64,000 nt of DNA from Desulfamplus sp. (GTDB taxonomy: Bacteria > Desulfobacterota > Desulfobacteria > Desulfobacterales > Desulfobacteraceae). The position numbers and the translations under genes are program-made. Below are positions 14,275 through 53,137 of this stretch, piece by piece. Below the pieces are notes generated by a model. The model did not search any database, had not been told where the DNA came from, and saw only the letters and a list, made by a program, of their open reading frames with translations. The stretch covers positions 10,694-74,693 of the forward strand of contig JADFZO010000003.1 of NCBI GenBank assembly GCA_015232465.1, written 5' to 3'. Each line of letters opens with the position of its first letter. Within the stretch, counting starts at the first letter, position 1.

Positions 14275-16019
14275 ATAAAACCTTTCTGACCAATATATAG
14301 CATTATCTCATGGACAGCCTCATCTGGCGTTGTGTGGGTTGTATCTATAGTTATCTCACACCTTTGCGGTATCTCGTAAGGGTCATCAACACCAGTAAAA
14401 CCTTTTATTAAGCCTGCTCTTGCTTTTGCATACATACCTTTTCTATCACGTTTTTCGCACTCATCAATTGGGGTTGCAACGTAAATCTCAAAAAAACCTC
14501 CATTTGTCTCAATTTCCCTTCTTATCTCTCTTCTTGTGTTTTGGTATGGTGCGATTGGGGCACATATTGCTATTCCTCTATTTTTTGTTATCTCTGATGC
14601 AACAAAGCCGATTCTTCTTACATTTATATCTCTGTGCTCTTTAGAGAAATTAAGCTCGCTTGAGAGATTTTTTCTTACAATATCGCCATCAAGAAGGGTT
14701 ACAGGTCTTGTGCCAATCTCCATAAATTTTGCATAAAGTATGTTTGCTATGGTCGATTTTCCAGCCCCAGATAGACCAGTTAAAAAGATCGTAAAACCTT
14801 GAGCTGAGGGGGGCGGATATGCCATTTTTAGCTCTTCAACAACCTCTGGAAATGTTGCCCACTCTGGAACGGCTTTTCCTGCACGTATTTTGTCTCTTAT
14901 ATCACTGCCTGATAAAAAAATCTTTTTTTTATTGTCGTTGTCATCAAGCAGCTCATCTTCAAACCTATACTCATCTTCATAGGGAAGATAGACCATTTTT
15001 TTAAATGCAACTACACTAACTCCAATCTTAGGGGCAAATTTAGATGCAAAATCTGAAGCCTTTTCTGACTCATAAAATGGAAGCCCATTGCTATCTATCC
15101 CAGGACTTGCATGATCATGCCCTATTATAAAATGTGTGCAGCCAAAATTTTTACCTATAATTATATGTAAAAGAGCATCTTTAGGACCTGCCATTCTCAT
15201 TGATAATGGAAGAAGATTTAGCATAAAAGAGTCTGGAGGGTAATGAGATTCAACCTTTTTATAGCACTTCATGCGGATAAAGTGATCAAAATCTCCTGGC
15301 TTAGTTTCACCAGCAACTGGCAACAGAAGAAGATTCGCCTCAGCCTGTCTCATTGCCCTTATAGTCATCTCAAACTGGGGTCTATGAATGGGCTGACGGG
15401 TTAAAAAGCCTACAACCTTTTTCCAACCAAGTTTTGTAAATAGTGCTCTAACCTCTGACGGCGATCTTCTAAGCTGCCTAAAATCAGGGTGTATGGGCAG
15501 ATTCATTGCTTCAATTGTGCCGCCTATGTAAAATTTACCAGAACGGTTATAGAGATAGTGAACTCCAGGGTGCTCTAAATCTTTAGTGCCATAAAGTGTC
15601 ATAGCCTCTTTATCTATATCAATCTGCCAAATATCGTTTACATCCATAACCCCTAACAGAAAACCCTCTTGATCCCTTAATATAACTTGCCTATTTTTTG
15701 ACCCATTTAAACCATTGGCTATTTTTTCAGAGACATCAAGGCAGATAGGCACGGGCCAAATTTCTCCAGTTGAAAGCCTCATATTTTCCAACACAGAGTT
15801 GTAGTCAGCTTGATTCATAAAACCTTTAAGAGGAGAGTAGCCCCCAGTTGAAAGAAGCTCAAAATCGCACATCTGACGAGAATTTAGGCTAACATCTGGC
15901 ATTGTTGATGATATTTTTTTAAGAAAATCGCAACGCTCAGAGGTTGCAATCAGATCAACAAGTTCGCCATTTATGCCATGTGGTGGTGAGTTAAAGTATC
16001 TGTTTGTTCTATTTATCAT
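14271..16019 (-). CDS. Sulfate adenylyltransferase-like / adenylylsulfate kinase fusion
   Basis: 582 residues. The ATP-sulfurylase part is an N-terminal PUA-like domain (about 1-160) plus a catalytic fold (about 165-390). The APS kinase domain (about 405-582) has P-loop GLSGAGKST (415-423) and DGD (444-446) and looks complete. The sulfurylase signatures are altered: the usual QTRNPxHRAH reads LTRQPIHRPQ (206-215), so Asn is replaced by Gln and the second His by Gln. GRDHAG reads GHDHAS (300-305), with Arg replaced by His. From memory, a Thiobacillus denitrificans protein of this two-domain type shows strong APS kinase but very weak sulfurylase activity. The protein probably makes PAPS, perhaps for sulfated surface molecules, from APS made elsewhere. 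It shares a 4-base overlap with the downstream EamA permease. Confidence 0.85.
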   Translation of the reverse strand: MINRTNRYFNSPPHGINGELVDLIATSERCDFLKKISSTMPDVSLNSRQMCDFELLSTGGYSPLKGFMNQADYNSVLENMRLSTGEIWPVPICLDVSEKIANGLNGSKNRQVILRDQEGFLLGVMDVNDIWQIDIDKEAMTLYGTKDLEHPGVHYLYNRSGKFYIGGTIEAMNLPIHPDFRQLRRSPSEVRALFTKLGWKKVVGFLTRQPIHRPQFEMTIRAMRQAEANLLLLPVAGETKPGDFDHFIRMKCYKKVESHYPPDSFMLNLLPLSMRMAGPKDALLHIIIGKNFGCTHFIIGHDHASPGIDSNGLPFYESEKASDFASKFAPKIGVSVVAFKKMVYLPYEDEYRFEDELLDDNDNKKKIFLSGSDIRDKIRAGKAVPEWATFPEVVEELKMAYPPPSAQGFTIFLTGLSGAGKSTIANILYAKFMEIGTRPVTLLDGDIVRKNLSSELNFSKEHRDINVRRIGFVASEITKNRGIAICAPIAPYQNTRREIRREIETNGGFFEIYVATPIDECEKRDRKGMYAKARAGLIKGFTGVDDPYEIPQRCEITIDTTHTTPDEAVHEIMLYIGQKGFI

Positions 16020-38030: not shown

Positions 38031-38151
38031 GTTAACATAAGAGAAGTTGGCTAAAGCCGATTATAATAAAATCCCACCTTTTAGTAGATTTTTGTTTCAG
38101 GTTAGCCGTGCGATTTATCGCTCGGCTAAACCTTTTGGGAGAGACTTTAAT

Positions 38152-41100
38152 ATGCAAAAACCACACTATTTTTTTATTCGCACTCTTTTTACTCTTGTTT
38201 TCATACTCATTATTTTCAATTTTCTCCCCTTTTGCACAAAGATAAACTCAGCACCTTTGCCCCAGCCACTTACAATCAAGCGAATACTGCCATCTGGTGA
38301 GGATATTCAAAATGATCGTCAGATTCTTATTCAGTTTAGCCGAGCAGTTGTGCCACTTGGCAGAATGGAGAGAAAAATAGAGGAGTTGCCAATAAAAATA
38401 ACCACAGATATCCCAAACTCTCCTGAGTTAAAAGGGCAGTGGAGATGGTTAAATCCAACTGATCTTGCATTTAATCTTGATGCTACATCGCAAATGATAC
38501 CAGCAACAAGATACACAATTGCGATAAATCCAGGAATTACCACGCAAGATGGTGCAACCCTTGCCGAGCCTTTTATCCACACATTTATAACTAAAAGACC
38601 AGCAATATCTTATTACCAATTTGAGACATGGCGATCTCCTGTAACTCCTGTTATTGCTCTTCATTTTAACCAACCTGTAACTAAAGATTCTGTTGTGGAG
38701 AGTCTTTATTTTGCACCAGTAAATCAACCTGAAAATAGATACCCAATTTTAGTTGAGAGCCATCAATCAATAGCTCAATCAAGAAATCAAACTAAAGATC
38801 ACAATATAGACCAAAATCTAAGCGATATTCAGGCAGCTTTGGTTTGGCGTCTATCCCCAGTTGGAGAGCTTCCGCAAGATAGCACTATAATTCTTATTGC
38901 CAATCCTGGCATATCTTCATCATTAGGCGGAGAAAAGAGCTTAGATACAAGGGAGGTGGTTCGATTTGACACATTTCCTGAACCTAAGTTTGCAGGCATT
39001 AGGTGTTATACAATAAAAGATGACAATCCAATCACAATATCGCCAGAAGATTCAGCCTCAGGCAAGTTAGAGCACATTGTTGATCCAAGGGGCTACACAG
39101 AGCTTTTATTTACAGCTCCAGTGGGGTTTGAGCAGATTCGCAATAATCTGATATTTTTGCCTGATCTTGCTCAAGGGCAAAAAAATTACGATCCATGGGC
39201 AAATGGCTACAACAGCTCCTATCTTAACTATACCCACACACGAGGCTCGCTCTATTCAGTTGCAATTCCTCAATATTTAAAGGCGTGGCAGCAATACACA
39301 ATAGTTGAAAAGAGCTTAGAAATAGAACAAGATGGGGCTGGCTCCTCAATTATTAAAGATGTGTTTGGCAGACATCTTATATCTCCAATTAACTTTACAT
39401 TCTACACAGATCACAGAAAACCAACCTATCAAATCCTTCACCAAACAGGGGTCTTGGAAAAAGATATTGATAGCGAAGTGCCTTTAGCAATAACCAATAT
39501 TGATAAGATGACAATTGATTACAAAACCTTAACAAAAGATAATGAGCTATCCCAAACATCAACAGATATGAATAGTGTTGTTAAATCAGATTTGAGGGTG
39601 CAAGATGTATCATACTTAATGCAGCTTGGTGTTCGTCAGATGTTAAATGGCAAAAGCGGTGCAGTTTATGGGAATGTTACATCAACCTCTCCAGCAGTTG
39701 ATGTAAATCAAGTTGGCGGATCCCATTTTTTTACAGTGGTTAGCCCTTGGCAGATTCATGCAAAGATGGGGCATTTTAGCTCTTTAGTTTGGGTTACAAG
39801 TCTTGTAACTGGCGAGCCTGTCCCTGACGTGGTTGTAACTGTTCATCGCTCTCTTGTTGAGAATTTGACTCGTAACTCTTATGCTCTTTGCCAAAGCACA
39901 ACAGATAAAGATGGTATTGCAACCTTACCCGGCATGGTTAGTCTTGATCCAAAGAGGGAGACATTTACAAACTCGTGGGAGTATGGGCGTGAGAGGTTAA
40001 TCATAAAAGCAGCCACAAATAGCGATCTTGCGATTTTACCACTTACATATCGTCACGATTTTTCTATCTCTGCATGGAGAGTCTCAGAGGGCAATGTCTC
40101 ATCATATTCAGAGCCACAATATGCCCATATTCACTCATGGGGAACAACTCCTCAGGGGATATATAAAGCTGGGGATACTATTGACTATAAAATATATGTA
40201 AGAGATCAAAATAATAGCTCTTTTGTGCTACCACCCATATCTGGTTATAAGTTGGTAATCACGGACCCAACTGGAAAAAATATCTTTGAGCAAAAAGATA
40301 TAACCCTCTCAGAGTTTGGAGCGTTTCATGGTCAATATAACATACCTAAAAATGGTGCAGTTGGGTGGTATCAATTTTATCTTTCTGCCTCTTTTTCAGA
40401 GTATAGTTGGGAGCCTTTAAAAGTTTTAGTTACAGATTTCACGCCATCTCCATTTAAGGTCTTAACGGAACTAAATGGGGATCACTTTAAACCTCAAGAT
40501 ACACTACACATTGAGACATCAGCCACTCTTCATGCAGGTTCTCCTTACAGTGATGCCCCTGTTCGTGTAACTGTTCGTCTAAAAGAGGAGAATTTTCAGC
40601 CAGATAACCCTATTACAAAAGGGTTTACATTTTACAGAGCTGCTGGAGGCGGACAAGATGATTTTTTATCTTATCAAAAAGATGCAAAAGAGGAGTCAGA
40701 TGTTGAAAATAGTGATAGTTACGAAGATGAATATATCTCTGATGCTCCTGAAACTCTTTTAGAAAAAAGAGGCGAGCTTGACAATCTTGGAATAATTAAA
40801 AATAGCCTTGTACTCTCAAATATCTCTTCTATCCCTTATGGTAAAATTGAGGTTGAGAGCTCTGTTCAAGATGATAGCGGAAGGTTTGTCTCAAGTTCAA
40901 ATAGGGTAACATATCTCGGAAGAGATTTATTTATTGGTCTTAAGAGCCTAAAATGGGTCTATGAAGCTGCAAAACCAGCAATTATTCAGGCAATAGCTGT
41001 TGATGGAAATGGTAATCTTGTTAAAGATAGGCAGATAAAGCTCTCTATTCAGCATCGTGTTACAAAGGCAGCTCGCATAAAAGGGGCTGGTAATGCCTAT

Positions 41101-44100
41101 CTGACCAAATATATCAATGAGTGGGTAGTTACAGAGGAAAAAACTTTAATATCAACCCTTGAGCCTCTTGAGTTTGATTTTAATCCATCTTTGCCAGGAG
41201 ATTATAGAGTTGTTGCTATGGTTGAGAGTAGTGAGGATAAAATTGGTGATAAAGTTGAGGATAAACAAGCTCATATTTCAAGCATCTCAACTTGGGTTAC
41301 TGGAAAAGGGCAAGTTTTATGGCAGGAGCCTGATGATTTTAGCCTTTCAATCATACCAGAGCAAGAGAGCTATAAGGTTGGAGATAGGGCAAAATATTTG
41401 ATCAAAAATCCATTTCCTAATGCTTATGCTCTAATAAGTGTGGAGAGGTACGGCATTTTGCGTCAATGGGTAGAGCAGCTTCAAAATTCAACACAGGTGG
41501 TTGAGGTTGAGATAATGGCTGAAGATGTGCCTGGATTTTTCTTATCTGTTACGATTATCTCACCACGGGTAGGGGCTGGAGGAGTTGGATCGCCTGTTGA
41601 TATTCAAAATCTTCCGCCCCCTCCACAAGATGGGGTTGATCTTGCAAAGCCAACATTTAGGTTGGGGTATGTTAAAACATCTGTAAAGGAGTTAGAGCAT
41701 GATATTAAAATTGCAGTTACCCCAGAGCAGTTGATCTATAAGCCAGCAGAGGTTGTAAAGGTAAAAATTCATGCAGAGGCTTTAAAAAATAGAGATGAGA
41801 AGATTGAATTTGCAGTTGCTGTTCTTGATGAGGCTGTTTTTGATCTGATTTCGTCTGGCAGAGATCATTTTGATATTTTTAAAGGTTTTAACATCTTAAA
41901 TGCTCTTGATGTTGAGAATTACAGCCTTCTTACAAACATGATAGGCAGACGAAAGTTTGAGAAAAAAGGGGCAAATGTTGGCGGAGATGGTGGTGCTGGA
42001 ATGAAGATGAGATCATCTTTTAAATATGTCAGCTACTGGAATCCATCAATTATTGCTGATAAGAATGGAGATGCAGCCATAGAGTTTAAAGCCCCAGATA
42101 ATCTGACAGGGTGGAAAATATTTGTTATGGCAGTAACTCCAACAGATTTAATGGGTCTTGGAGAGGCTAATTTTAAGGTCAACCGAGCAACCGAGATTAG
42201 ACCAGTTATGCCAAACCAAGTTACAGAGGGCGACTCTTTTGAGGCTGGTTTTAGTGTTATGAATAGAACAGATAAGGCAAGATACATCAATGTATCTATT
42301 AAAGCTAAAAACTCTAATTCAGATAATTTAAACGCAGATGAAACTAAAGAGATAGCTTTGGAGCGTCAGATTAATCTTCTGCCATTTAAGCGAGAGACTA
42401 TTTTTCTTCCAATTACTGCTAAATTATCAAAATCATCAGAAAAATCTGGAGCAATAACATTTATTGCACAGGCACAAGATGAGTTTGATGGCGATGCTTT
42501 GACCCACACTTTAGAGGTTAATAAAAAGCAATCTTTTATAACAGCTTTAAATTATGGCATTGTCTCTAACAAGGGGGGGACGAGCGAAAAGCTCCTCTAT
42601 CCTGAAAATATCTATCCAGATATATCAAAAACAATAGTAACGCTCTATCCAACAGTTATTGGCAATATGGAGCAATCATTTAAATACATGGCTCAATACC
42701 CCTATAGTTGTTGGGAGCAAAAACTTAGTAAAGCTCTTATGGCTTCTCATTTTGTGGAACTAAAGGGCTATCTTCCAAAAGAGGCAATCTCATGGCAAGA
42801 GGCAGAGTCCCTGCCTGAAAAGACTCTTTTATTGGCATCACAATTTCAGGCACCAAATGGAGGATTTGCCTATTTTACTCCAGATGATGGCTATGTTTGC
42901 CCCTATCTTTCAGCATACACAGCACTTGCATTTGGCTGGCTCAAGTCAAGGGGATTTAGTGTCCCAAAAGATGTTGAAGATAGGCTCTTTGGCTATCTTT
43001 CCACACTTGTAAGAAAAGATATTTTTCCAATGTTGGATAGTGGGGGATTTTACAGCAACGCTATGAGATCAACTGTTCGTGCAGTTGCTCTTTGTGCTCT
43101 TGCTAAAGCTGGAAAAGCTGGCATATCAGAGATCACACGTTATGAGCCACATCTAAATGAGATGAGCCTCTTTGGCAAAGCTCTTTTTTTAATGGCAGCA
43201 GTTGAGGTTAAAGGTGGTGAATCAATTGCCAAAAGGGTGTGGGATATGATCCTATCAAGTGCCAATTTTAGTTCAGGCAAAGTTGTATTTAGCGAATCGC
43301 TTGACTCTGATTTTTCAAGAATCCTTGAATCACCAACCAGAACACAAGGTACGATTTTATCAGCAGTTATTAAGTTTGCTGATAGGGTAAAAGATGCTGA
43401 TGATATTGCATTTAAACTTGTTCGCACAATTACAGAGACAAATGGGGGAGCAAATTCAGGTTATACCACTCAAGAGAGTATATTTTGCTTAAATGCTCTT
43501 GTTGATTATAGTGCTAAATATGAGAGTGTAGAGGCAAGGGTAGGGGAGAGAGGTGATAACAGTGGAGATACTCTTGATATTAAAACTATTTTAAAAATTG
43601 AGTCATCAGACGAAGAGGAGATGGGAGTTGCAAGTTTTAAAGATATTAAAGATTTGCCAGTAACCTTTACAAAAAAGATAACTAAAGCAGAACTTGGCAA
43701 AAGTGCAGATATAATAATTATGCAGGATTCAAAGCCCCAACAAGCTGAAAATATTGATAATGTGGGTAATATCTACTACTTAGCAGGCTTAAAATATGCC
43801 CCAAAAGATGATTTTGCAGAGCCTATCAATTCAGGTATTGAGGTGCGTAGGGAGTATAGCGTTGAAAGAGATGGAAGATGGGTGCTTTTACACCGTGAGT
43901 CTAATAAAGATGGGGAAAAGATAGATAACACTATTAAAAGAGGCGATCTTGTTCGGGTAGATATTTTTTTGAGTCTGCCAACAGCACGCAATTTTCCAGT
44001 GGTTAGCGATCCTGTGCCAGGTGGATTTGAGCCTGTAAATAGAGAGCTTGCAACTGCATCAATAGTTGATGCACAAAAGGCTGATTCCTTACCGCCTGAG

Positions 44101-44352
44101 GGTTCATGGTGGTTTAAGCTGCAAAATTGGTATGAGTTTAACCAATCAAGATGGAGTTTTTACCATCAAGAGCTTGGACATAAAGCTGTCAGATACTACG
44201 CGGACTATCTTCCAGCAGGAAATTACCATTTATCCTATACACTTCAGGCAATCGCACAAGGCAGCTTTGCAGCAATGCCAATCTATGCTGAAGAGATGTA
44301 TAATGCTGATATTTTTGGCAGAGGAGTTGCGGAAAATATAGTGATTTTTTGA
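38152..44352 (+). CDS. Bacterial alpha-2-macroglobulin with thioester motif
   Basis: About 2066 residues from the ATG at 38152, which has GGGAGAG 8 bases upstream; a TTG at 38047 would add 35 residues before the signal segment. An N-terminal hydrophobic stretch (about residues 8-22) would export or anchor the protein. Many beta-rich macroglobulin domains follow. The thioester motif CWEQ lies at 42709-42720 (about residue 1520) in an alpha-helical domain, and an MG10/receptor-like domain ends the protein. Bacterial alpha-2-macroglobulins trap proteases in the periplasm. The usual partner PBP1C is not adjacent; instead an MBOAT acyltransferase gene follows. A noncanonical lipobox-like LPFC near residue 27 is not convincing. 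Confidence 0.9.
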   Translation: MQKPHYFFIRTLFTLVFILIIFNFLPFCTKINSAPLPQPLTIKRILPSGEDIQNDRQILIQFSRAVVPLGRMERKIEELPIKITTDIPNSPELKGQWRWLNPTDLAFNLDATSQMIPATRYTIAINPGITTQDGATLAEPFIHTFITKRPAISYYQFETWRSPVTPVIALHFNQPVTKDSVVESLYFAPVNQPENRYPILVESHQSIAQSRNQTKDHNIDQNLSDIQAALVWRLSPVGELPQDSTIILIANPGISSSLGGEKSLDTREVVRFDTFPEPKFAGIRCYTIKDDNPITISPEDSASGKLEHIVDPRGYTELLFTAPVGFEQIRNNLIFLPDLAQGQKNYDPWANGYNSSYLNYTHTRGSLYSVAIPQYLKAWQQYTIVEKSLEIEQDGAGSSIIKDVFGRHLISPINFTFYTDHRKPTYQILHQTGVLEKDIDSEVPLAITNIDKMTIDYKTLTKDNELSQTSTDMNSVVKSDLRVQDVSYLMQLGVRQMLNGKSGAVYGNVTSTSPAVDVNQVGGSHFFTVVSPWQIHAKMGHFSSLVWVTSLVTGEPVPDVVVTVHRSLVENLTRNSYALCQSTTDKDGIATLPGMVSLDPKRETFTNSWEYGRERLIIKAATNSDLAILPLTYRHDFSISAWRVSEGNVSSYSEPQYAHIHSWGTTPQGIYKAGDTIDYKIYVRDQNNSSFVLPPISGYKLVITDPTGKNIFEQKDITLSEFGAFHGQYNIPKNGAVGWYQFYLSASFSEYSWEPLKVLVTDFTPSPFKVLTELNGDHFKPQDTLHIETSATLHAGSPYSDAPVRVTVRLKEENFQPDNPITKGFTFYRAAGGGQDDFLSYQKDAKEESDVENSDSYEDEYISDAPETLLEKRGELDNLGIIKNSLVLSNISSIPYGKIEVESSVQDDSGRFVSSSNRVTYLGRDLFIGLKSLKWVYEAAKPAIIQAIAVDGNGNLVKDRQIKLSIQHRVTKAARIKGAGNAYLTKYINEWVVTEEKTLISTLEPLEFDFNPSLPGDYRVVAMVESSEDKIGDKVEDKQAHISSISTWVTGKGQVLWQEPDDFSLSIIPEQESYKVGDRAKYLIKNPFPNAYALISVERYGILRQWVEQLQNSTQVVEVEIMAEDVPGFFLSVTIISPRVGAGGVGSPVDIQNLPPPPQDGVDLAKPTFRLGYVKTSVKELEHDIKIAVTPEQLIYKPAEVVKVKIHAEALKNRDEKIEFAVAVLDEAVFDLISSGRDHFDIFKGFNILNALDVENYSLLTNMIGRRKFEKKGANVGGDGGAGMKMRSSFKYVSYWNPSIIADKNGDAAIEFKAPDNLTGWKIFVMAVTPTDLMGLGEANFKVNRATEIRPVMPNQVTEGDSFEAGFSVMNRTDKARYINVSIKAKNSNSDNLNADETKEIALERQINLLPFKRETIFLPITAKLSKSSEKSGAITFIAQAQDEFDGDALTHTLEVNKKQSFITALNYGIVSNKGGTSEKLLYPENIYPDISKTIVTLYPTVIGNMEQSFKYMAQYPYSCWEQKLSKALMASHFVELKGYLPKEAISWQEAESLPEKTLLLASQFQAPNGGFAYFTPDDGYVCPYLSAYTALAFGWLKSRGFSVPKDVEDRLFGYLSTLVRKDIFPMLDSGGFYSNAMRSTVRAVALCALAKAGKAGISEITRYEPHLNEMSLFGKALFLMAAVEVKGGESIAKRVWDMILSSANFSSGKVVFSESLDSDFSRILESPTRTQGTILSAVIKFADRVKDADDIAFKLVRTITETNGGANSGYTTQESIFCLNALVDYSAKYESVEARVGERGDNSGDTLDIKTILKIESSDEEEMGVASFKDIKDLPVTFTKKITKAELGKSADIIIMQDSKPQQAENIDNVGNIYYLAGLKYAPKDDFAEPINSGIEVRREYSVERDGRWVLLHRESNKDGEKIDNTIKRGDLVRVDIFLSLPTARNFPVVSDPVPGGFEPVNRELATASIVDAQKADSLPPEGSWWFKLQNWYEFNQSRWSFYHQELGHKAVRYYADYLPAGNYHLSYTLQAIAQGSFAAMPIYAEEMYNADIFGRGVAENIVIF

Positions 44353-45940: not shown

Positions 45941-46909
45941 ATGAGACAATCAAAAAGATTTATATTAAAACTTGCAGCCTTTGCTCTCCTAAATTTAGCC
46001 ATAATGGTAAGCCTTTTGCTCTTTTTTTCAGGCAAAAATAGAGATATTCGGTTTAAAAATTGGGAGACTGAGTCAAATCTTTTGGTAATTAGAGAAGATG
46101 AGGTTTACGATGTTGCAATACTTGGCACATCAAGGGGCAGAGTCTTTTCTCGCGACTCAAACCACTTGACAGTTGAGTCTATTTTACAAAAAAGGGTGGT
46201 AAATCTATCCAAAGGCGGAGGGGGGGGGCTTATGCCTGCAAAGGTGCATCTCTCCCACTTTTATCGAAGAGGTAATAGGGCTAATCAAATACTCTATTTT
46301 GTTGACCCTTGGATCTTTTTCTGCCCAATAAATAATGAAAACAACACCTTTTTTCTGCGTGATGAGCCGTTTGAAATATCAATTTTATTGGATTTGATTT
46401 TAAATAGATTCCCTTCAGAGCGTATAATCTCCTATATTCAGATGATAGCTGTTGATGATTGGAAATCTATTAGCCAATACGCTGCACCTGGCCTTGATAA
46501 GCTCACTTTAAAGGCAATTGATCCTGTTAAACTTGAGGAGGCAAGAGAGCACTATCTTGGGCTTTACGATTATAGTAAGTTTGACCATTACAGCAGTTTT
46601 GTAAGCGACATAAACAGATTAACCAAACAGCACAACAGCAAAATTACCTACATTATGCTCCCTATTTTGATGGAGAATTTTCCCGGTGCTAAAGAGGTTG
46701 ATGAAAAGCTAAAAAAGATAATAGAAAACGATCTAACTTCTCAAAATTTAAGGGATAAAAATAGTGTTAATTACCACAATCTAATTGATAAGATGCAAGA
46801 TAGGCAATTTTTTTATGATCACATGCACTTTAATAACTATGGTGTTGCCCATTTTACTAAAACGTATTTAATACCAATTTTGGATAACCCCACTTCTGTC
46901 CAATTTTAA
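45941..46909 (+). CDS. Membrane-anchored SGNH-like protein, partner of the MBOAT acyltransferase
   Basis: 322 residues with a single N-terminal membrane helix (about 9-29) and a periplasmic domain. The putative nucleophile Ser64 lies in LGTSRG, and a C-terminal DHMH block (D293, H296) completes the SGNH-type catalytic set. It follows the MBOAT gene by 32 bases, the layout of AlgI/AlgX-like systems where the SGNH protein puts acetyl groups on the polymer. The link to an exact family is inferred from these residues and context. Confidence 0.7.
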   Translation: MRQSKRFILKLAAFALLNLAIMVSLLLFFSGKNRDIRFKNWETESNLLVIREDEVYDVAILGTSRGRVFSRDSNHLTVESILQKRVVNLSKGGGGGLMPAKVHLSHFYRRGNRANQILYFVDPWIFFCPINNENNTFFLRDEPFEISILLDLILNRFPSERIISYIQMIAVDDWKSISQYAAPGLDKLTLKAIDPVKLEEAREHYLGLYDYSKFDHYSSFVSDINRLTKQHNSKITYIMLPILMENFPGAKEVDEKLKKIIENDLTSQNLRDKNSVNYHNLIDKMQDRQFFYDHMHFNNYGVAHFTKTYLIPILDNPTSVQF

Positions 46910-47397
46910 TGGAGGGGATAGATAAAACCATGCTAACAACACTTGAAAAAAAGATAATTGCATCACTTCAAGGCAATATTCCAGTAACATCACACCCTTT
47001 TTTAGAGCTTGCCCAAAATATAGGCGTATCAGAGGCGGAGTATCTTAATGTGGTAAAGAGCCTAAGTGAGCGGGGGATAATCAGGCGGTTTGGAGCTACC
47101 TTAAAGCATCAAAACTCAGGATTTAAAGCCAATGCTATGGTTGCTTGGAGAGTTGATGAAGATAGGGTTCAAGATGTGGGCAGAATCATGGCTTCTTTTG
47201 ATGAGGTTACCCACTGTTATAGGCGAAACCCCGCCCCAACTTGGAGATACAATCTCTATACTATGGTACACGGTCCTGATGAAGATGCCTGTAGGGCAAT
47301 TGCAGCAAAGCTCTCAAAAGCCTCAAGAGTTGATGATTACACACTTTTGTTTAGCACCCGTGAGCTTAAAAAGACATCTATGAACTATTTTGCATGA
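46909..47397 (+). CDS. ahbB: Siroheme decarboxylase-type (Ahb) Lrp/AsnC-like protein
   Basis: 162 residues of Lrp/AsnC architecture: a winged helix (about 10-62, EYLNVVKSLSERGIIRRFGA), then a RAM-like domain with VTHCYRRNPAPTWRYNLYTM. This pattern matches AhbA/AhbB, which decarboxylate siroheme to 12,18-didecarboxysiroheme in the alternative haem route of sulfate reducers and methanogens. Whether it is AhbA or AhbB is uncertain; I favour AhbB by the HCYRR phrase. The ATG at 46909 overlaps the previous stop by one base; a second ATG at 46930 is also possible. Confidence 0.75.
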   Translation: MEGIDKTMLTTLEKKIIASLQGNIPVTSHPFLELAQNIGVSEAEYLNVVKSLSERGIIRRFGATLKHQNSGFKANAMVAWRVDEDRVQDVGRIMASFDEVTHCYRRNPAPTWRYNLYTMVHGPDEDACRAIAAKLSKASRVDDYTLLFSTRELKKTSMNYFA

Positions 47398-47418
47398 TTT
47401 TTAAAAAAAGCCTATCCA

Positions 47419-48873
47419 TTGTCTGATAACTCTCCTCATATACTCTGTGTAAATCCTTGGATACACGATTTTGCAGCCTTTGATTTTTGGGCAAAACCGT
47501 TAGGGTTACTTCAACTTGCAGCAATAATAAGAGCTGGCGGAGCTGAGGTCTCATTTTTGGACTGCCTTGATAGATTTCACCCAAAATATCTTCAAGAGAT
47601 CGGCAAAAAAAAATTAAAAACTTTAGATGATGGTCGAGGCTCTTTCAGAAAAAGGTCAATCCCTTTGCCTAATGGGGTTGAGATTGAAGCAAAATATATC
47701 TCATCAACAGAAAAACTCTCACCTGAAAAGAAGAGGCTATTTTTAGGAAAATCTTTTTCTCGATATGGAGTTGAACCTGATTGGTTTAGGCAGGATTTAA
47801 AGGCTCTTTCTGATAAAATAGGAGCTAAAAACGGGGGTAAATTTGGCAAACCAGACCTAATTTTAGTTACATCTCTTATGACCTATTGGGCATCTGGAGT
47901 AAAAGAGACAATATCTCTCATAAAGGAGATATTTCCTGATACCCCTGTTGTGCTTGGGGGTATTTATGCAACGCTCTGTACTGCACATGCTAAAAAAAAC
48001 TCTATGGCTGACGAGGTTATAATTAGAAGCGGAGAGCAGCAGATTTTTGATATTATTAAAAAATATACAGGTTTTTCACTTAGTAGCACCATCTCTTCCA
48101 TTTCAATTTCGCCTTTAAATCTTGATTTGCTTCCATATCCAGCACTTGATCTTGTATCAAGACTCACATACGCCCCTATTTTGACCTCAAGAGGTTGCCC
48201 ATTTACCTGCTCATATTGTGCCTCATCTTTTCTTGAGCCTCAGATGAGACGTAGATCACCTGAATCTGTTTTTGACGAGATATGTTACTGGCACAAAAAT
48301 TATGGAGTTCACAATTTTGCCTTTTACGATGATGCACTCTTAATTGATCCTGAAAAATATATCCTTCCACTTTTGGATAAAATATTGAGTTTACCCCTCT
48401 CTTTTTACACCCCAAATGCTCTGCACATCAGGCAGATGACAAAAGATGTTGCAAGTATGATGTTTAAAACAGGCTTTAAAACTATTCGCCTTGGGCTTGA
48501 GACAACCGATTTTTCAACCACACGCAAAGATGATAAAAAGGTTAGGGCAGATGAATTTTTTTATGCAGTTGGAATGTTAAAAGAGGCTGGATTTAGGCAA
48601 GAGGAGATTGGAGCTTACCTGTTGTGCGGCTTGCCAAACCAGAACCTTGATGATGTTGAGCAATCTATCGCTCTTGTAAAGAAGAGCGGTATTATGCCAG
48701 TTCTTGCCTACTACACCCCAATACCCCATACACCAATGTGGCAGGAGGCTGTTAAAGTCTCAAGGTTTGATTTGGAAAATGAGCCTTTTTTTACCAACAA
48801 CACCCTTTTCCCCTGCGTTAATAGTGAGCATGATATAAAAAAGATTTCTGAATTGAAAAAAATGGCAAAATAA
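47419..48873 (+). CDS. B12-binding domain radical SAM protein
   Basis: 484 residues. A cobalamin-binding-like domain (about 1-220) with PLGLLQLAAIIRAGGAEV and VVLGGIYATL is followed by the radical SAM barrel with the Fe-S motif CPFTCSYC (C260, C264, C267) and LGLETTD. It starts at TTG (47419), with no better codon nearby. Such enzymes methylate or rearrange unactivated carbons; the substrate is unknown. It follows the Ahb gene by 21 bases, but it lacks the features of AhbC/AhbD, which have no B12 domain. Confidence 0.75.
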   Translation: MSDNSPHILCVNPWIHDFAAFDFWAKPLGLLQLAAIIRAGGAEVSFLDCLDRFHPKYLQEIGKKKLKTLDDGRGSFRKRSIPLPNGVEIEAKYISSTEKLSPEKKRLFLGKSFSRYGVEPDWFRQDLKALSDKIGAKNGGKFGKPDLILVTSLMTYWASGVKETISLIKEIFPDTPVVLGGIYATLCTAHAKKNSMADEVIIRSGEQQIFDIIKKYTGFSLSSTISSISISPLNLDLLPYPALDLVSRLTYAPILTSRGCPFTCSYCASSFLEPQMRRRSPESVFDEICYWHKNYGVHNFAFYDDALLIDPEKYILPLLDKILSLPLSFYTPNALHIRQMTKDVASMMFKTGFKTIRLGLETTDFSTTRKDDKKVRADEFFYAVGMLKEAGFRQEEIGAYLLCGLPNQNLDDVEQSIALVKKSGIMPVLAYYTPIPHTPMWQEAVKVSRFDLENEPFFTNNTLFPCVNSEHDIKKISELKKMAK

Positions 48874-48946: not shown

Positions 48947-50617
48947 TTGAATTTAATTGAAATTCTGATACAGACTTTAGGTGGCTTAGGGCTTTTTATA
49001 CTTGGTATGAAGATGATGACAGAGGGCCTTGAGATGACTGCTGGGCACAGAATTAAAAAGATTCTAAGTGCCATATCATCAAACCGAGTTATTGGCTGTC
49101 TAACTGGTGCTGGTGTTACTGCCATTATCCAATCTTCATCTGCAACAACTGTTATGCTTATTGGTTTTGTTGGTGCTGGGATTATGAGTTTTGAACAGGC
49201 TGTTGGCGTTGTTCTTGGTGCAAATGTTGGTACAACCATGACAGCACAGATGATCTCTTTAAAACTAACTGGTCTTGCCCTTCCTGCTGTTGCAATTGGA
49301 GTCCCTGTTAAATACTTTTCAAAAAGCCGATACTATCGCCATATTGGGGAGATAATTTTAGGGTTTGGTCTTCTATTTTATGGAATGACCGTAATGGGTG
49401 ATGGGCTTGCCCCTATAAAATCTGATCCTAATTTTGTAGCCTTTTTCACAAAGTTTACCACAGACTCGCTTGGAGGGATTTTATTGTGTGTAGCTGTTGG
49501 TGCAATGGTAACTATAATGGTTCAATCTTCATCTGCCACAGTTGGTCTTACCATGACGCTTGCATCTCAAGGATTAATCTCATTTCCTACAGCTATGGCT
49601 CTTGTTTTGGGTGAAAATATTGGCACAACAATAACTGCTGAACTTGCAACAATTGGCTCTTCAAGCATTAGTGCACATAGAACAGCAAGGGCACACACCC
49701 TTTTTAATGTTATTGGCGTTGGTATGATGGTAATTATCTTTCCTCTCTTTATAAAGCTGGTGCTATTTGCCACAGATATAATGGGTGCAGGAGATGTAAA
49801 CCATACAGTGAATGGGCAGTATGTAAATATTACCAGATACATTGCCAACGGGCACACACTTTTTAATGTTATTAATGCTTCATTTTTTCTATTGTTTCTT
49901 CCAACTCTGACTAAAACAGCGATTTTGCTATCTCCTAAGGAGAAAAAAAAGGAGCGTTATAAATTGCCTGTATTTGACTCAAGGTTTATTGACTCTCCTA
50001 TTGGTGCTCTTGCAAAAGTTCATGGTGAAGTTATGAAAATGGCTGAATTTACAAGGAATCGTTTGCAGAATCTTTCAAAATGTATTAAGATTAGAGATGA
50101 TGACAAGTTGGGCGAAAGAGAGGCAGTAGAAGAACATATTGATACCATGCAGCTTGTGATAACCCAATATCTCACAACAATATATCAAGGTGGAGTTAGC
50201 GAATATGAGGCTGATGAAATATCTGAGATGATGCGTATCACAAATAACCTTGAGAGGATTGGGGACTCTATGGAGAATGCTTCACAAGCTATTGAGCGAA
50301 TGTATAACCAGGATATTCTATTGACCCCAGATGCTCTAAACGATCTTGAAGCTATTGCAAGAGAGGTTGATATATTTTTTGATATGGTCATAAAGGAGAT
50401 GAAAGAGAAGTCAGATGACTTTTTCCAAAAAGCAGAGGCACAGGAAAACCTTATAGATTCAATGAGAGAGCGAATGCGAAATGATCACATAGAGAGATTA
50501 AGACAGAGCAAATGTTCGGTTGATTCTGGTCTTTTATATATATCACTTCTTTCTAATTACGAAAAGATGGGTGATTACTGCTTCAATATTGCAATTGGTG
50601 TTAATAGGATAAAATAA
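48947..50617 (+). CDS. Na+/phosphate cotransporter with PhoU-like domain
   Basis: 556 residues of NptA/YjbB type: two inverted transporter repeats with the QSSSAT signatures (IIQSSSATTVMLIGF and MVQSSSATVGLTMT), then a cytoplasmic PhoU-like four-helix domain (about 355-550). The TTG at 48947 is chosen because a strong GAGAGGGGGG lies 5 bases before it. It moves phosphate, in or out, depending on the sodium gradient. The unknown HIT/GalT-like gene starts 6 bases later. Confidence 0.85.
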   Translation: MNLIEILIQTLGGLGLFILGMKMMTEGLEMTAGHRIKKILSAISSNRVIGCLTGAGVTAIIQSSSATTVMLIGFVGAGIMSFEQAVGVVLGANVGTTMTAQMISLKLTGLALPAVAIGVPVKYFSKSRYYRHIGEIILGFGLLFYGMTVMGDGLAPIKSDPNFVAFFTKFTTDSLGGILLCVAVGAMVTIMVQSSSATVGLTMTLASQGLISFPTAMALVLGENIGTTITAELATIGSSSISAHRTARAHTLFNVIGVGMMVIIFPLFIKLVLFATDIMGAGDVNHTVNGQYVNITRYIANGHTLFNVINASFFLLFLPTLTKTAILLSPKEKKKERYKLPVFDSRFIDSPIGALAKVHGEVMKMAEFTRNRLQNLSKCIKIRDDDKLGEREAVEEHIDTMQLVITQYLTTIYQGGVSEYEADEISEMMRITNNLERIGDSMENASQAIERMYNQDILLTPDALNDLEAIAREVDIFFDMVIKEMKEKSDDFFQKAEAQENLIDSMRERMRNDHIERLRQSKCSVDSGLLYISLLSNYEKMGDYCFNIAIGVNRIK

Positions 50618-50623
50618 AAATCA

Positions 50624-52309
50624 ATGGGCAACAATAAACCTTTAAATAGATTAAAATCTTTAAGAAGCTGTGTCTCTGAAGATGGTCAATTTATTGTTGG
50701 TATTCACAGACCAGCATTTAACATCGAACTTTTACGGCAAAATAGATACATTGAACCACTTGGAATGTTGCCTGATGGTAGTGAAGTTAAAAATGGGATA
50801 AATTTCCCTGATAGATGTGTTAATGAGCCTAATGCAGATATAATTTATGAGATTTATAATCCATTTTCATTTCGTGGCACAACCTATATCAACTCAGCAT
50901 GGGCTGACCAAAAGGCTGGAAGAGCAGAGTTGATAAAATTACCCAGCCCCCCTCCTTGCTCACTTAATCAAATGTTTACCAATTTTATGAGTGATTCATC
51001 TTGTTTTAGCAACTTTTTATCCAAACTTCCATATCCTCTTAAAATTGCCCTTGCACAAAGCACAACTGATAAAGATGATCTTATTGCACTATTACCTTTC
51101 TGCTGCACTATTTTGTATGATGATGCAAAAAATCCATCTGGACTTTTATTCAAAATGGGAAAAAATGGAGAGCCAACTGCTGAGATACACGATCACACTC
51201 TATTTGATATAATTGGAAATAACCCTTATCTTCCAGATAGTTATAAGCGGGCTATGGTTTTAAAGCCCGGTATTCAGGGAAAGAGCGAGATAACAGGCGA
51301 GTGGTTAGAAGATGATAAAATTGAGGCTAAAAGTCATGTTTTTGAGTATTTAAGGCGTAATAGCTATATCCCATGGGGGCATTTTGCAGCCAATACAGCA
51401 GATGACACTGTAAGATATAGCATAAATGATCTTAAAATGGCTGATATGTTTGGTATGCGTCATCTATATTATCAAAGGACATATCTTAGGTTGGCAGAGC
51501 AATTAAATATATCTTTTAAAACATCATCAAAGACCATACCAGTTGATGAGCTTGAGAGCCTTAGATGCTCAATAATCAAAGAGCTTGACAGCTCAAGAGC
51601 AGATAATCTGCAGTTTAATGGCTCTTTGTGGGGTTGGAATTTTGGTTTTGATTGCTCTCAATCTGGTTATAGACTGCACGCATCGCATCAGCAGATTCAT
51701 CAGCAATATGCCATGGTTCCCAAAAGGGTTTTATGCTCCACCGCTAAAAATATAGCTGATGAGCCAACACAAGAAGAGAGCATTCAAAGCTATGCTTGCG
51801 GAGATATGGTGGCTGATTTTATTCAATATTATAAAGATATGACTGGCAAAGATTTTTTTGACAACTACATAAATGCTATAAGATCAAATAGACGCACTGA
51901 TGGCAAAAAGCGAGAACCATCAAGTCTTATAGTTTATGAAGACTCTAATGTAATTTTGTTTGTTCCAAAGGCTCAAACATCTCAGTGGGAGCTTCAACTT
52001 ATGGCATTAAAGAGTTGTGGCAATATTCTTGAGGCAGATTCAAAGATGAGGGCATCTTTAGATAGAGCTATTTTTACTGCACTTAAGATTCTTGAGAGAT
52101 TAGGTGTAAAAATGGTAACTGCAATCGAGTTTTCAAAGAGATTTGACTCAAAAGATAGGGATCAGAGGCTACTTTATTCATTTGTGCCAAAATTACCAGA
52201 ATCTCCAGGTGCTTTTAGTGAGGCACAGCTTAGATGGATCAATGGGCACTATCCAGAGGATTTTGCCGATGCTTGCAAAATGAAGCTAACTCAAAATATT
52301 CCATCTTGA
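50624..52309 (+). CDS. Unrecognised protein with HIT/GalT-like motif
   Basis: 561 residues, no signal peptide or membrane helix. I do not recognise the family. The motif LHASHQQIH (about 351-359) resembles the HIT/GalT catalytic loop, where the fifth position His and the following Gln align with HPHGQ. The C-terminal stretch SSLIVYEDSNVILFVPKAQ (about 437-455) looks like the beta-strand edge seen in HIT/GalT folds. A nucleotidyltransferase or nucleotide phosphorylase role is therefore possible. It follows the phosphate transporter by 6 bases, so a phosphate- or nucleotide-linked job is plausible. Sequence-level certainty is low. Confidence 0.6.
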   Translation: MGNNKPLNRLKSLRSCVSEDGQFIVGIHRPAFNIELLRQNRYIEPLGMLPDGSEVKNGINFPDRCVNEPNADIIYEIYNPFSFRGTTYINSAWADQKAGRAELIKLPSPPPCSLNQMFTNFMSDSSCFSNFLSKLPYPLKIALAQSTTDKDDLIALLPFCCTILYDDAKNPSGLLFKMGKNGEPTAEIHDHTLFDIIGNNPYLPDSYKRAMVLKPGIQGKSEITGEWLEDDKIEAKSHVFEYLRRNSYIPWGHFAANTADDTVRYSINDLKMADMFGMRHLYYQRTYLRLAEQLNISFKTSSKTIPVDELESLRCSIIKELDSSRADNLQFNGSLWGWNFGFDCSQSGYRLHASHQQIHQQYAMVPKRVLCSTAKNIADEPTQEESIQSYACGDMVADFIQYYKDMTGKDFFDNYINAIRSNRRTDGKKREPSSLIVYEDSNVILFVPKAQTSQWELQLMALKSCGNILEADSKMRASLDRAIFTALKILERLGVKMVTAIEFSKRFDSKDRDQRLLYSFVPKLPESPGAFSEAQLRWINGHYPEDFADACKMKLTQNIPS

Positions 52310-52393: not shown

Positions 52394-53137
52394 GTGAATC
52401 AACACCAGAAAATGGAGAAGAGTTTAGTTACTAACGAGATTTCAGCAGTTAAATTAAGAGGGGTTGGAGATGGATTTAAGCTAACACTTGATCCTACTAT
52501 GCCAGAGGAAGTTATACTAAAAGAGATAACTGCACTCTTTGAACCCCTTAAACATCTTTCGGTAAATACAAAGGTTGTCCTTGATATTGGTAACGTTCAA
52601 GGTTATGATAATCTTATAAGAGATATAAAATTCTTACTTAAAAGCCGCTTTGATGTTGGCGGTGTAATACAGCACTCTGAAAAAATATCAGGTGTTGGAA
52701 AAGATAGTGGTTCAACAATTAACCATCGTAGTAATTCCAATAAAGATAACAGCAGGGGTTGGGTTACAGATAGAAGTGATGCTCTTATTCTAACAGGAAG
52801 GGTAAGATCGGGTCAGAAGATAGAGACACAGAGCCATCTTATAATTGCGGGCAATGTAAATCCTGGTGCTGAACTTACTGCTGGTGGCAATATTATTGTG
52901 CTTGGAGCGCTTTTAGGGCAGGTTTATGCTGGTTATCCTGATGATGAGTATGCTTTTGTTATGGCTCTTGATTTTCGACCTACCCAAGTTCAGATTGGTG
53001 GTGTAGTATCTATTGAGATAAATAGCGAGTTTGTTGGAAAACCAGTATTTGCAACAGTGAAAGATAATAAAATTATTACCGAAGATTATATAAAAACTCA
53101 GCCATTTGGTAAAATTCAGTGGCCCACTGTGATGTAG
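52394..53137 (+). CDS. minC: Septum-site-determining protein MinC
   Basis: 247 residues with an N-terminal FtsZ-inhibiting domain (about 1-115) and the C-terminal beta-helix that binds MinD (LTGRVRSGQKIETQSHLIIA and GNVNPGAELTAGGNIIVLG). The two parts are joined by a Ser/Asn/Asp-rich linker. It starts at GTG (52394), with GAGGTG upstream. MinC blocks FtsZ ring assembly at cell poles. Confidence 0.92.
   Translation: MNQHQKMEKSLVTNEISAVKLRGVGDGFKLTLDPTMPEEVILKEITALFEPLKHLSVNTKVVLDIGNVQGYDNLIRDIKFLLKSRFDVGGVIQHSEKISGVGKDSGSTINHRSNSNKDNSRGWVTDRSDALILTGRVRSGQKIETQSHLIIAGNVNPGAELTAGGNIIVLGALLGQVYAGYPDDEYAFVMALDFRPTQVQIGGVVSIEINSEFVGKPVFATVKDNKIITEDYIKTQPFGKIQWPTVM

Follow-up and report, generated by a model that had tools for sequence, protein, structure and literature searches.

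What kind of protein is encoded by a gene that is widely conserved yet matches no named family? The question is raised by an open reading frame in the window analyzed here, a stretch of 64,000 nucleotides from Desulfamplus sp. (Table 1). A preliminary description of the window had pointed to a stretch in the encoded protein, LHASHQQIH, that resembles the HPHGQ loop of GalT and HIT proteins, and to an adjoining gene for a phosphate transporter. From these it had suggested a phosphate- or nucleotide-linked enzyme outside the known families.

A conserved gene family without a name

The gene is real and conserved. The open reading frame of 561 residues is found in the window as described, with LHASHQQIH at residues 351-359. 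Relatives occur in 72 of 98 related genomes, distributed between the gene's own taxonomic family (57 of 59, its own genome counted) and the rest of the order (15 of 39). In a phylum-wide sample of Desulfobacterota, 30 of 297 genomes carry it. Every full-length match in the 98 related and 297 phylum genomes has an E-value lower than 1e-150, which sets the family off sharply within the genomes searched. Protein identity is about 40-70% across many bacterial families of the phylum. A scan of genome contigs found 168 relatives, 80 of which were taken further. Among the titles of these 80 are Desulfobacterota such as Desulfamplus, Desulfocapsa, Desulfoprunum, Desulfosarcina, and Desulfosudis; many titles are only broad, and one metagenome-assembled genome (L041) belongs by its label to the SAR324 cluster. 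No match to the family was found on plasmids, and none of 53 stretches of viral contigs that fitted a pattern encoded a relative.

The protein had been called unrecognised, and rightly so: no Pfam or NCBIfam model matched it over cut-off, nor did a scan with both libraries produce any family at E up to 1. The same libraries gave only weak, scattered matches to 50 aligned members, none over cut-off; those on the HIT/GalT side were DcpS_C (0.041), the NCBIfam GalT model PRK11720 (0.015), and HinT (0.07), each in one member of the 50. The GalT models PF01087 and PF02744 were listed for none of the 50 at E up to 10 (a Pfam scan in which HMMER filters discard most matches above 0.1), and the 50 gave no match to PF01230 (HIT), the DUF4931 model, or PF09830. 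The GalT Pfam models do match the real GalT-type proteins checked. By these tests of membership, the protein is not GalT proper. A route to its identity through sequence alone was abandoned, as phmmer and a 50-row profile run against PDB sequences gave no believable match; what turned up included PRP43 (E 0.05) and a HIT protein (E 1.8). No description of the family came up in the literature listings, and it has no name to look up.

Table 1. Features of the gene and its immediate neighbors in the window
Feature	Position	Strand	Basis
Gene for GalT-like protein	50624..52309	+	Open reading frame, ATG start, 561 aa
N-terminal part, residues 1-218 (family-specific extension, many invariant residues)	50624..51277	+	
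Signature RLHASHQQIHQQ, residues 350-361	51671..51706	+	Conservation; profile alignment puts H355 on GalT nucleophile His
C-terminal HIT-type domain, ~residues 409-557	51848..52294	+	hhalign; single-domain HIT alignments
Na/Pi cotransporter with PhoU domain, upstream neighbor	48947..50617	+	PF02690 4.2e-62, PF01895 8.2e-17
MinC-like cell division gene, downstream neighbor	52394..53137	+	PF03775 2.4e-26

Predicted fold, signature, and putative active site

An AlphaFold2 model of the full-length protein, built on the 50-row alignment, has a pLDDT of 86.1 and a pTM of 0.87. When it was compared with solved structures, the folds of GalT and ADP-glucose phosphorylase scored far above other folds (Z 21-22 over ~280 residues). 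The top 19 PDB rows from Foldseek, with E-values from 3.4e-8 to 6.4e-7, are GalT, At5g18200 (ADP-glucose phosphorylase), or a uridylyltransferase to which the PDB gives the name GalT; GalT 1gup_A is matched at 7e-8. In VIA-align, human GALT (5in3_B; Z 21.6, rmsd 3.6, 281 aligned residues), E. coli GalT (1hxq_B; Z 21.6, rmsd 3.4, 281 aligned), and At5g18200 (1z84_A; Z 21.5, rmsd 3.7, 282 aligned) are tied as the best match to the predicted fold. The next group is DUF4931 (4qvu), with Z 13.6 over 205 residues, and lower are the Ap4A phosphorylases Rv2613c (3ano; Z 9.1) and yeast Apa2 (4i5w; Z 6.8) and the single HIT proteins (Z about 8 and below). The guess of GalT/HIT similarity thus holds at the level of the fold, in Foldseek and VIA-align as well as in the profile comparison described below, and the structure prediction that had been proposed as a check did not yield a fold devoid of that similarity.

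For the profile comparison, the yardstick was a set of 21 of 33 GalT-type proteins from Desulfobacterota genomes (3 of them confirmed with Pfam), whose profile gives E-values of 9.8e-87 for E. coli GalT and 8.6e-107 for At5g18200. Aligned to this set by hhalign, 50 family members gave an E-value of 0.0029 and a probability of 10.6%, and 136 family rows (~105 after filtering) gave a score of 42.6, a probability of 51%, and an E-value of 1.5e-4 that refers to one comparison. That score lies above all of 60 column shuffles (mean 18.2, sd 3.4, maximum 27.6) and above the reversed profile (16.5). In this HHpred-type comparison, a kind of check also proposed earlier, the score stands out from the controls, but hhalign's own probabilities reach only 10.6% and 51%, and global mode gave no alignment (E 0.94). 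One default run aligned only residues 400-553, with the motif outside. Taken together, the profiles point to a remote sequence relation between the family and GalT-type proteins, in agreement with the fold match.

The likeness extends to the C-terminal domain, where hhalign pairs the family's PKAQTSQWE stretch with PFASRxPFE of the GalT type and P[RK]LP..GAFSE..INGHYPED with PRLT..GFE..IN..PEE. Most single-domain HIT chains align by VIA-align from residues 399-412 onward. The N-terminal part, modeled alone from an alignment of 49 rows (L031 left out), has a pLDDT of 87.8 and a pTM of 0.58, and the search made among solved folds gave no match to it (best Foldseek E 0.7, best Z 2.5), a result that does not show the fold to be new. 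Since several of the VIA alignments to GalT start within residues 69-74 when the full model is used, a portion of residues 1-218 may belong to the GalT core.

The signature at the presumed active site is covered by 135 of the 136 aligned family rows. The consensus RL[HN][AG]SHQ[QM][IV]HQQ is fitted exactly by 122 of the 135. H355, Q356, H359, and Q361 are invariant, and R350 is kept in 133. Position 352 is His in 125 rows and Asn in 10; position 353, which corresponds to the first His of the GalT HPH, is Ala in 128 and Gly in 7; and position 357 is Gln in 113 and Met in 22, the Met forms not making up one clade in the tree. Residues 353-359 read [AG]SHQ[QM][IV]H in 133 rows and ATHQQIH or GSHQQAH in the remaining two. 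Because H355 and H359 are kept in every covering row, the motif is more than chance.

How does the signature lie on the GalT loop? In the hhalign register, H355 falls on the second His of HPHSQ (confidence digit 7 with 50 rows, 6 with 136 rows and a relaxed threshold), A353 on the first His of HPHxQ, and Q357 on its Gln. The preliminary description had lined the two loops up at one His and the Gln; the His is borne out by its invariance, whereas the Gln is not a feature of the family, being Met in 22 rows. The second His of HPHxQ, where H355 aligns, is the catalytic His186 in human GALT, according to a part of PMC11816840. A rival register that would place H359-x-Q361 on the GalT motif gains from the invariance of both residues, whereas Q357 varies, but it appears less likely. 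By eye, fitting it between NxG and the Pro of E. coli GalT takes an insertion of 7 residues and a deletion of 3, compared with insertions of 3 and 1 between the same flanks for H355. The loop carrying H355 (residues 342-356) has a pLDDT under 50 in the AlphaFold2 model, so the structure cannot decide between the registers or define the geometry of the active site.

Other marks of GalT are altered as well. The CxxC pair of GalT is an N-terminal metal site and is not universal in GalT. In the 21 GalT-type rows, both of its cysteines (C53 and C56) are invariant, but there is no CxxC pair among the conserved Cys of the family. At the position of H306, the C-terminal His of the GalT-type alignment, the consensus residue of the family is not His (by eye). 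In the stretch that pairs with GFE of the GalT type, whose Glu has a sugar-binding role, 132 of 134 family rows keep a Glu.

Since the first His is absent, the Gln variable, and the CxxC pair absent, the activity may have been changed or lost. Perhaps the GalT fold has been kept while nucleotidyltransferase activity is gone, and the signature, with HPH turned to [AG]SH, binds a metal or ligand or is structural. The low confidence with which the active-site loop is modeled would fit such a loss, but it may equally stem from the 50-row alignment or from a missing partner chain, and the strict retention of H355, H359, and their neighbors in all 135 rows, drawn from many bacterial families, suits catalysis. 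On this evidence, we judge the loss of activity unlikely.

The explanation we favor, and believe with some reserve to be the right one, is that the protein is a divergent nucleotidyltransferase or phosphorylase of the GalT superfamily that uses a nucleotidyl-histidine. Its two HIT-type domains would form a GalT-like core after the family-specific N-terminal extension. The fold suggests a nucleotide-linked enzyme, as had been proposed, which would most likely transfer a nucleoside monophosphate in a two-step reaction: His355 (less likely His359) would attack a nucleotide-linked substrate to give the nucleotidyl-histidine as a covalent intermediate, and the nucleotidyl group would then be passed to an acceptor, for example a sugar phosphate or inorganic phosphate. 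The protein probably works like GalT, for which a His-Pro-His motif and a ping-pong mechanism are described in a passage of PMC9313126.

Genomic context and candidate substrates

Might the neighbors of the gene indicate the substrate? The gene indeed starts 6 bases after the stop of the upstream Na/phosphate cotransporter. The coupling to that transporter, however, is rejected as a rule for the family. In the 140 loci compared, of which 130 extend more than 1000 bases upstream and two (L001 and L111) represent the copy in the window, a Na/Pi transporter adjoins the gene only in the window and in L002 and L031, of the same genus. A different phosphate transporter, PiT with DUF47, is encoded 1 or 3 open reading frames downstream in four loci (L044, L049, L050, and L058). 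These four do not group as a separate clade in the tree; their transport genes offer a second hint at phosphate, though a weak one.

Elsewhere the neighbors differ by lineage. In 110 loci, surveyed by naive calling of open reading frames (part of them with only ~1500 bases of flank, and L074 without the central frame), there were cupin (16), RsmI-like (16), trpB-like (15), trpA-like (14), and GlnD (11) genes, with AmtB- and GlnB-like genes behind the GlnD gene in some. RsmI, trp, AmtB, and GlnB were named by eye, and one cupin and one GlnD by Pfam. In one group of loci, the family gene is directly preceded by a small cupin gene (L003:3129-3479) and directly followed by a gene for 148 residues that Pfam does not match (L003:1034-1480), each overlapping it by a few bases in L003; neighbors of both types are present in 13 of the 110 loci. 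The MinC-like gene of the window is followed by MinD-like and MinE-like open reading frames (MinE by eye), and MinC and MinD also lie downstream of the family gene in L002 and L018. In the loci surveyed, no gene of a sugar pathway was a recurrent neighbor of the family gene. With neighbors varying among lineages, gene context therefore indicates no substrate.

Two further features of the window may be recorded. Within 46909-48873, a siroheme-decarboxylase-like AsnC/NirDL gene (PF17805, PF22451) immediately precedes a gene for a B12-binding radical SAM protein (PF02310, PF04055) that is below all NCBIfam cut-offs listed, and 38047-44352 holds a 2101-residue open reading frame, alpha-2-macroglobulin-type by eye.

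Of the substrate classes that might be considered, a sugar nucleotide is the likeliest and APS the boldest. The protein could be a nucleotide-sugar uridylyltransferase or phosphorylase with chemistry close to that of GalT or ADP-glucose phosphorylase, as GalT and At5g18200 are its closest folds and the Glu of GFE, presumably sugar-binding, is nearly always kept. The family does not simply take the place of GalT, though: in the phylum sample, PF01087 (GalT) is also present in 25 of its 30 carriers, against 160 of 297 genomes overall. The only holders of PF01087 among 58 close relatives (G024, G060, and G072) all carry the gene too. The lack of a recurrent sugar-pathway neighbor also tells against this special case, which we regard as possible but doubtful. 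The presence of glgC was rejected as a functional clue (25 of 30 carriers against 37 of 50 others, at E up to 1e-60). One of the three relatives, G024, has alongside the new family a GalT-type protein (L143) with the motif NFGPAAGGSIAHTHSQ and a best match to DUF4921. PF09830 was found in none of the 58 relatives.

The boldest candidate comes from the company that the gene keeps across genomes. Dissimilatory APS reductase (aprA) is found over cut-off in 28 of the 30 carriers, compared with 116 of 297 genomes in the whole phylum sample. Of the other two carriers, the genome of the window retains a fragment of aprA where a contig ends, and G299 gives no aprA match but has a truncated sat. Sat is found in all 30 carriers, in 29 over cut-off. 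The window itself holds, at 14829-15983 on the minus strand (G000:C81:25522-26676), an open frame of 585 residues with a full-length match to sulfate adenylyltransferase (378 bits to TIGR00339). The hypergeometric P for the link with aprA is 8e-11 when genomes are counted. When families are counted, by hand, 15 of 16 compare with 44 of 96 and P is 2e-5. Neither value is corrected for phylogeny.

Such a link may be explained by shared ancestry, as a parallel case illustrates. The proton-pumping pyrophosphatase HppA (PF03030) is found in only 3 of 30 carriers across the phylum, compared with 38 of 50 aprA genomes without the gene (hand-picked from 88), and in none of the 59 genomes of the gene's own family, compared with 36 of the order's 39 remaining genomes. 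Within the order, outside the gene's own family, the difference vanished (14 of 15 carriers, 22 of 24 non-carriers). A link of the gene to the lack of HppA was accordingly rejected as a lineage effect, and its collapse calls for caution over the aprA link as well.

With this caution in mind, the protein might, as another special case of the favored explanation, be the APS:phosphate adenylyltransferase of sulfur metabolism (ADP sulfurylase, Apt), which converts APS and phosphate to ADP and sulfate and would be used when carriers oxidize or disproportionate sulfur. The association with aprA and sat and the phosphate transporters near the gene in the window's genus and four other loci are consistent with that role, and Apt is listed as not predicted in a sulfur-disproportionating genome in a figure legend of PMC8780430. 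However, only 28 of the 116 genomes with aprA carry the gene, shared ancestry inside a single phylum can produce such a link, and the fold of yeast Ap4A phosphorylase is matched much more weakly than that of GalT. In sulfate reducers, on grounds of energetics, APS:phosphate adenylyl transfer would waste APS. Also, Sat is present and able to do the last step, and it is Sat that a cable-bacterium model uses (as given in part of PMC13293266). We find the identification with Apt improbable. Most speculative, and very improbable in our estimate, is the reading in which the family would be a branch of the GalT superfamily with a shifted catalytic motif (SHQ-x-x-HQQ) and a new N-terminal domain that serves dissimilatory sulfur metabolism; the APS:phosphate adenylyltransferase that is missing in sulfur-oxidizing or -disproportionating Desulfobacterota would be one such role.

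Whatever its substrate, a family that has no name in the libraries searched but occurs across many families of a major sulfur-cycling phylum can now be assigned a predicted fold and a candidate class of reaction. Should the protein be active, the GalT superfamily would gain a branch whose active-site motif is different.

Comparison with known systems

The systems to which the new family may be compared differ in how much of it they resemble. HIT proteins such as Hint and Fhit match, with their single HIT domain, residues ~409-557 of the family, which has two domains and no HxHxH motif. The Ap4A phosphorylases (Rv2613c, 3ano; yeast Apa2, 4i5w) have a HIT-type fold in common with it, but the match is clearly weaker. 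DUF4931 (4qvu) is the next fold group after GalT but is smaller and less similar. ADP-glucose phosphorylase At5g18200 (1z84, 2h39) ties with GalT as the best fold and has near its C-terminus an IN..PED stretch resembling that of the family (by eye). Its HSHSQ motif, however, is not kept, the first His being replaced by [AG] in 135 of 135 rows, its CxxC is absent from the family, and identity in the structural alignments is 13-14%.

With GalT itself (E. coli 1hxq, human 5in3) the differences are also plain: the family has about 200 extra residues, is unmatched by the GalT Pfam models, conserves neither the CxxC pair nor the aligned C-terminal His, and carries [AG]SHQ[QM] in place of HPHGQ. Common to both are the core fold, matched over 281 residues, and, in the profile alignment, an NxG followed by an SHxQI-like stretch and the C-terminal PFE and PRL..GxE stretches.
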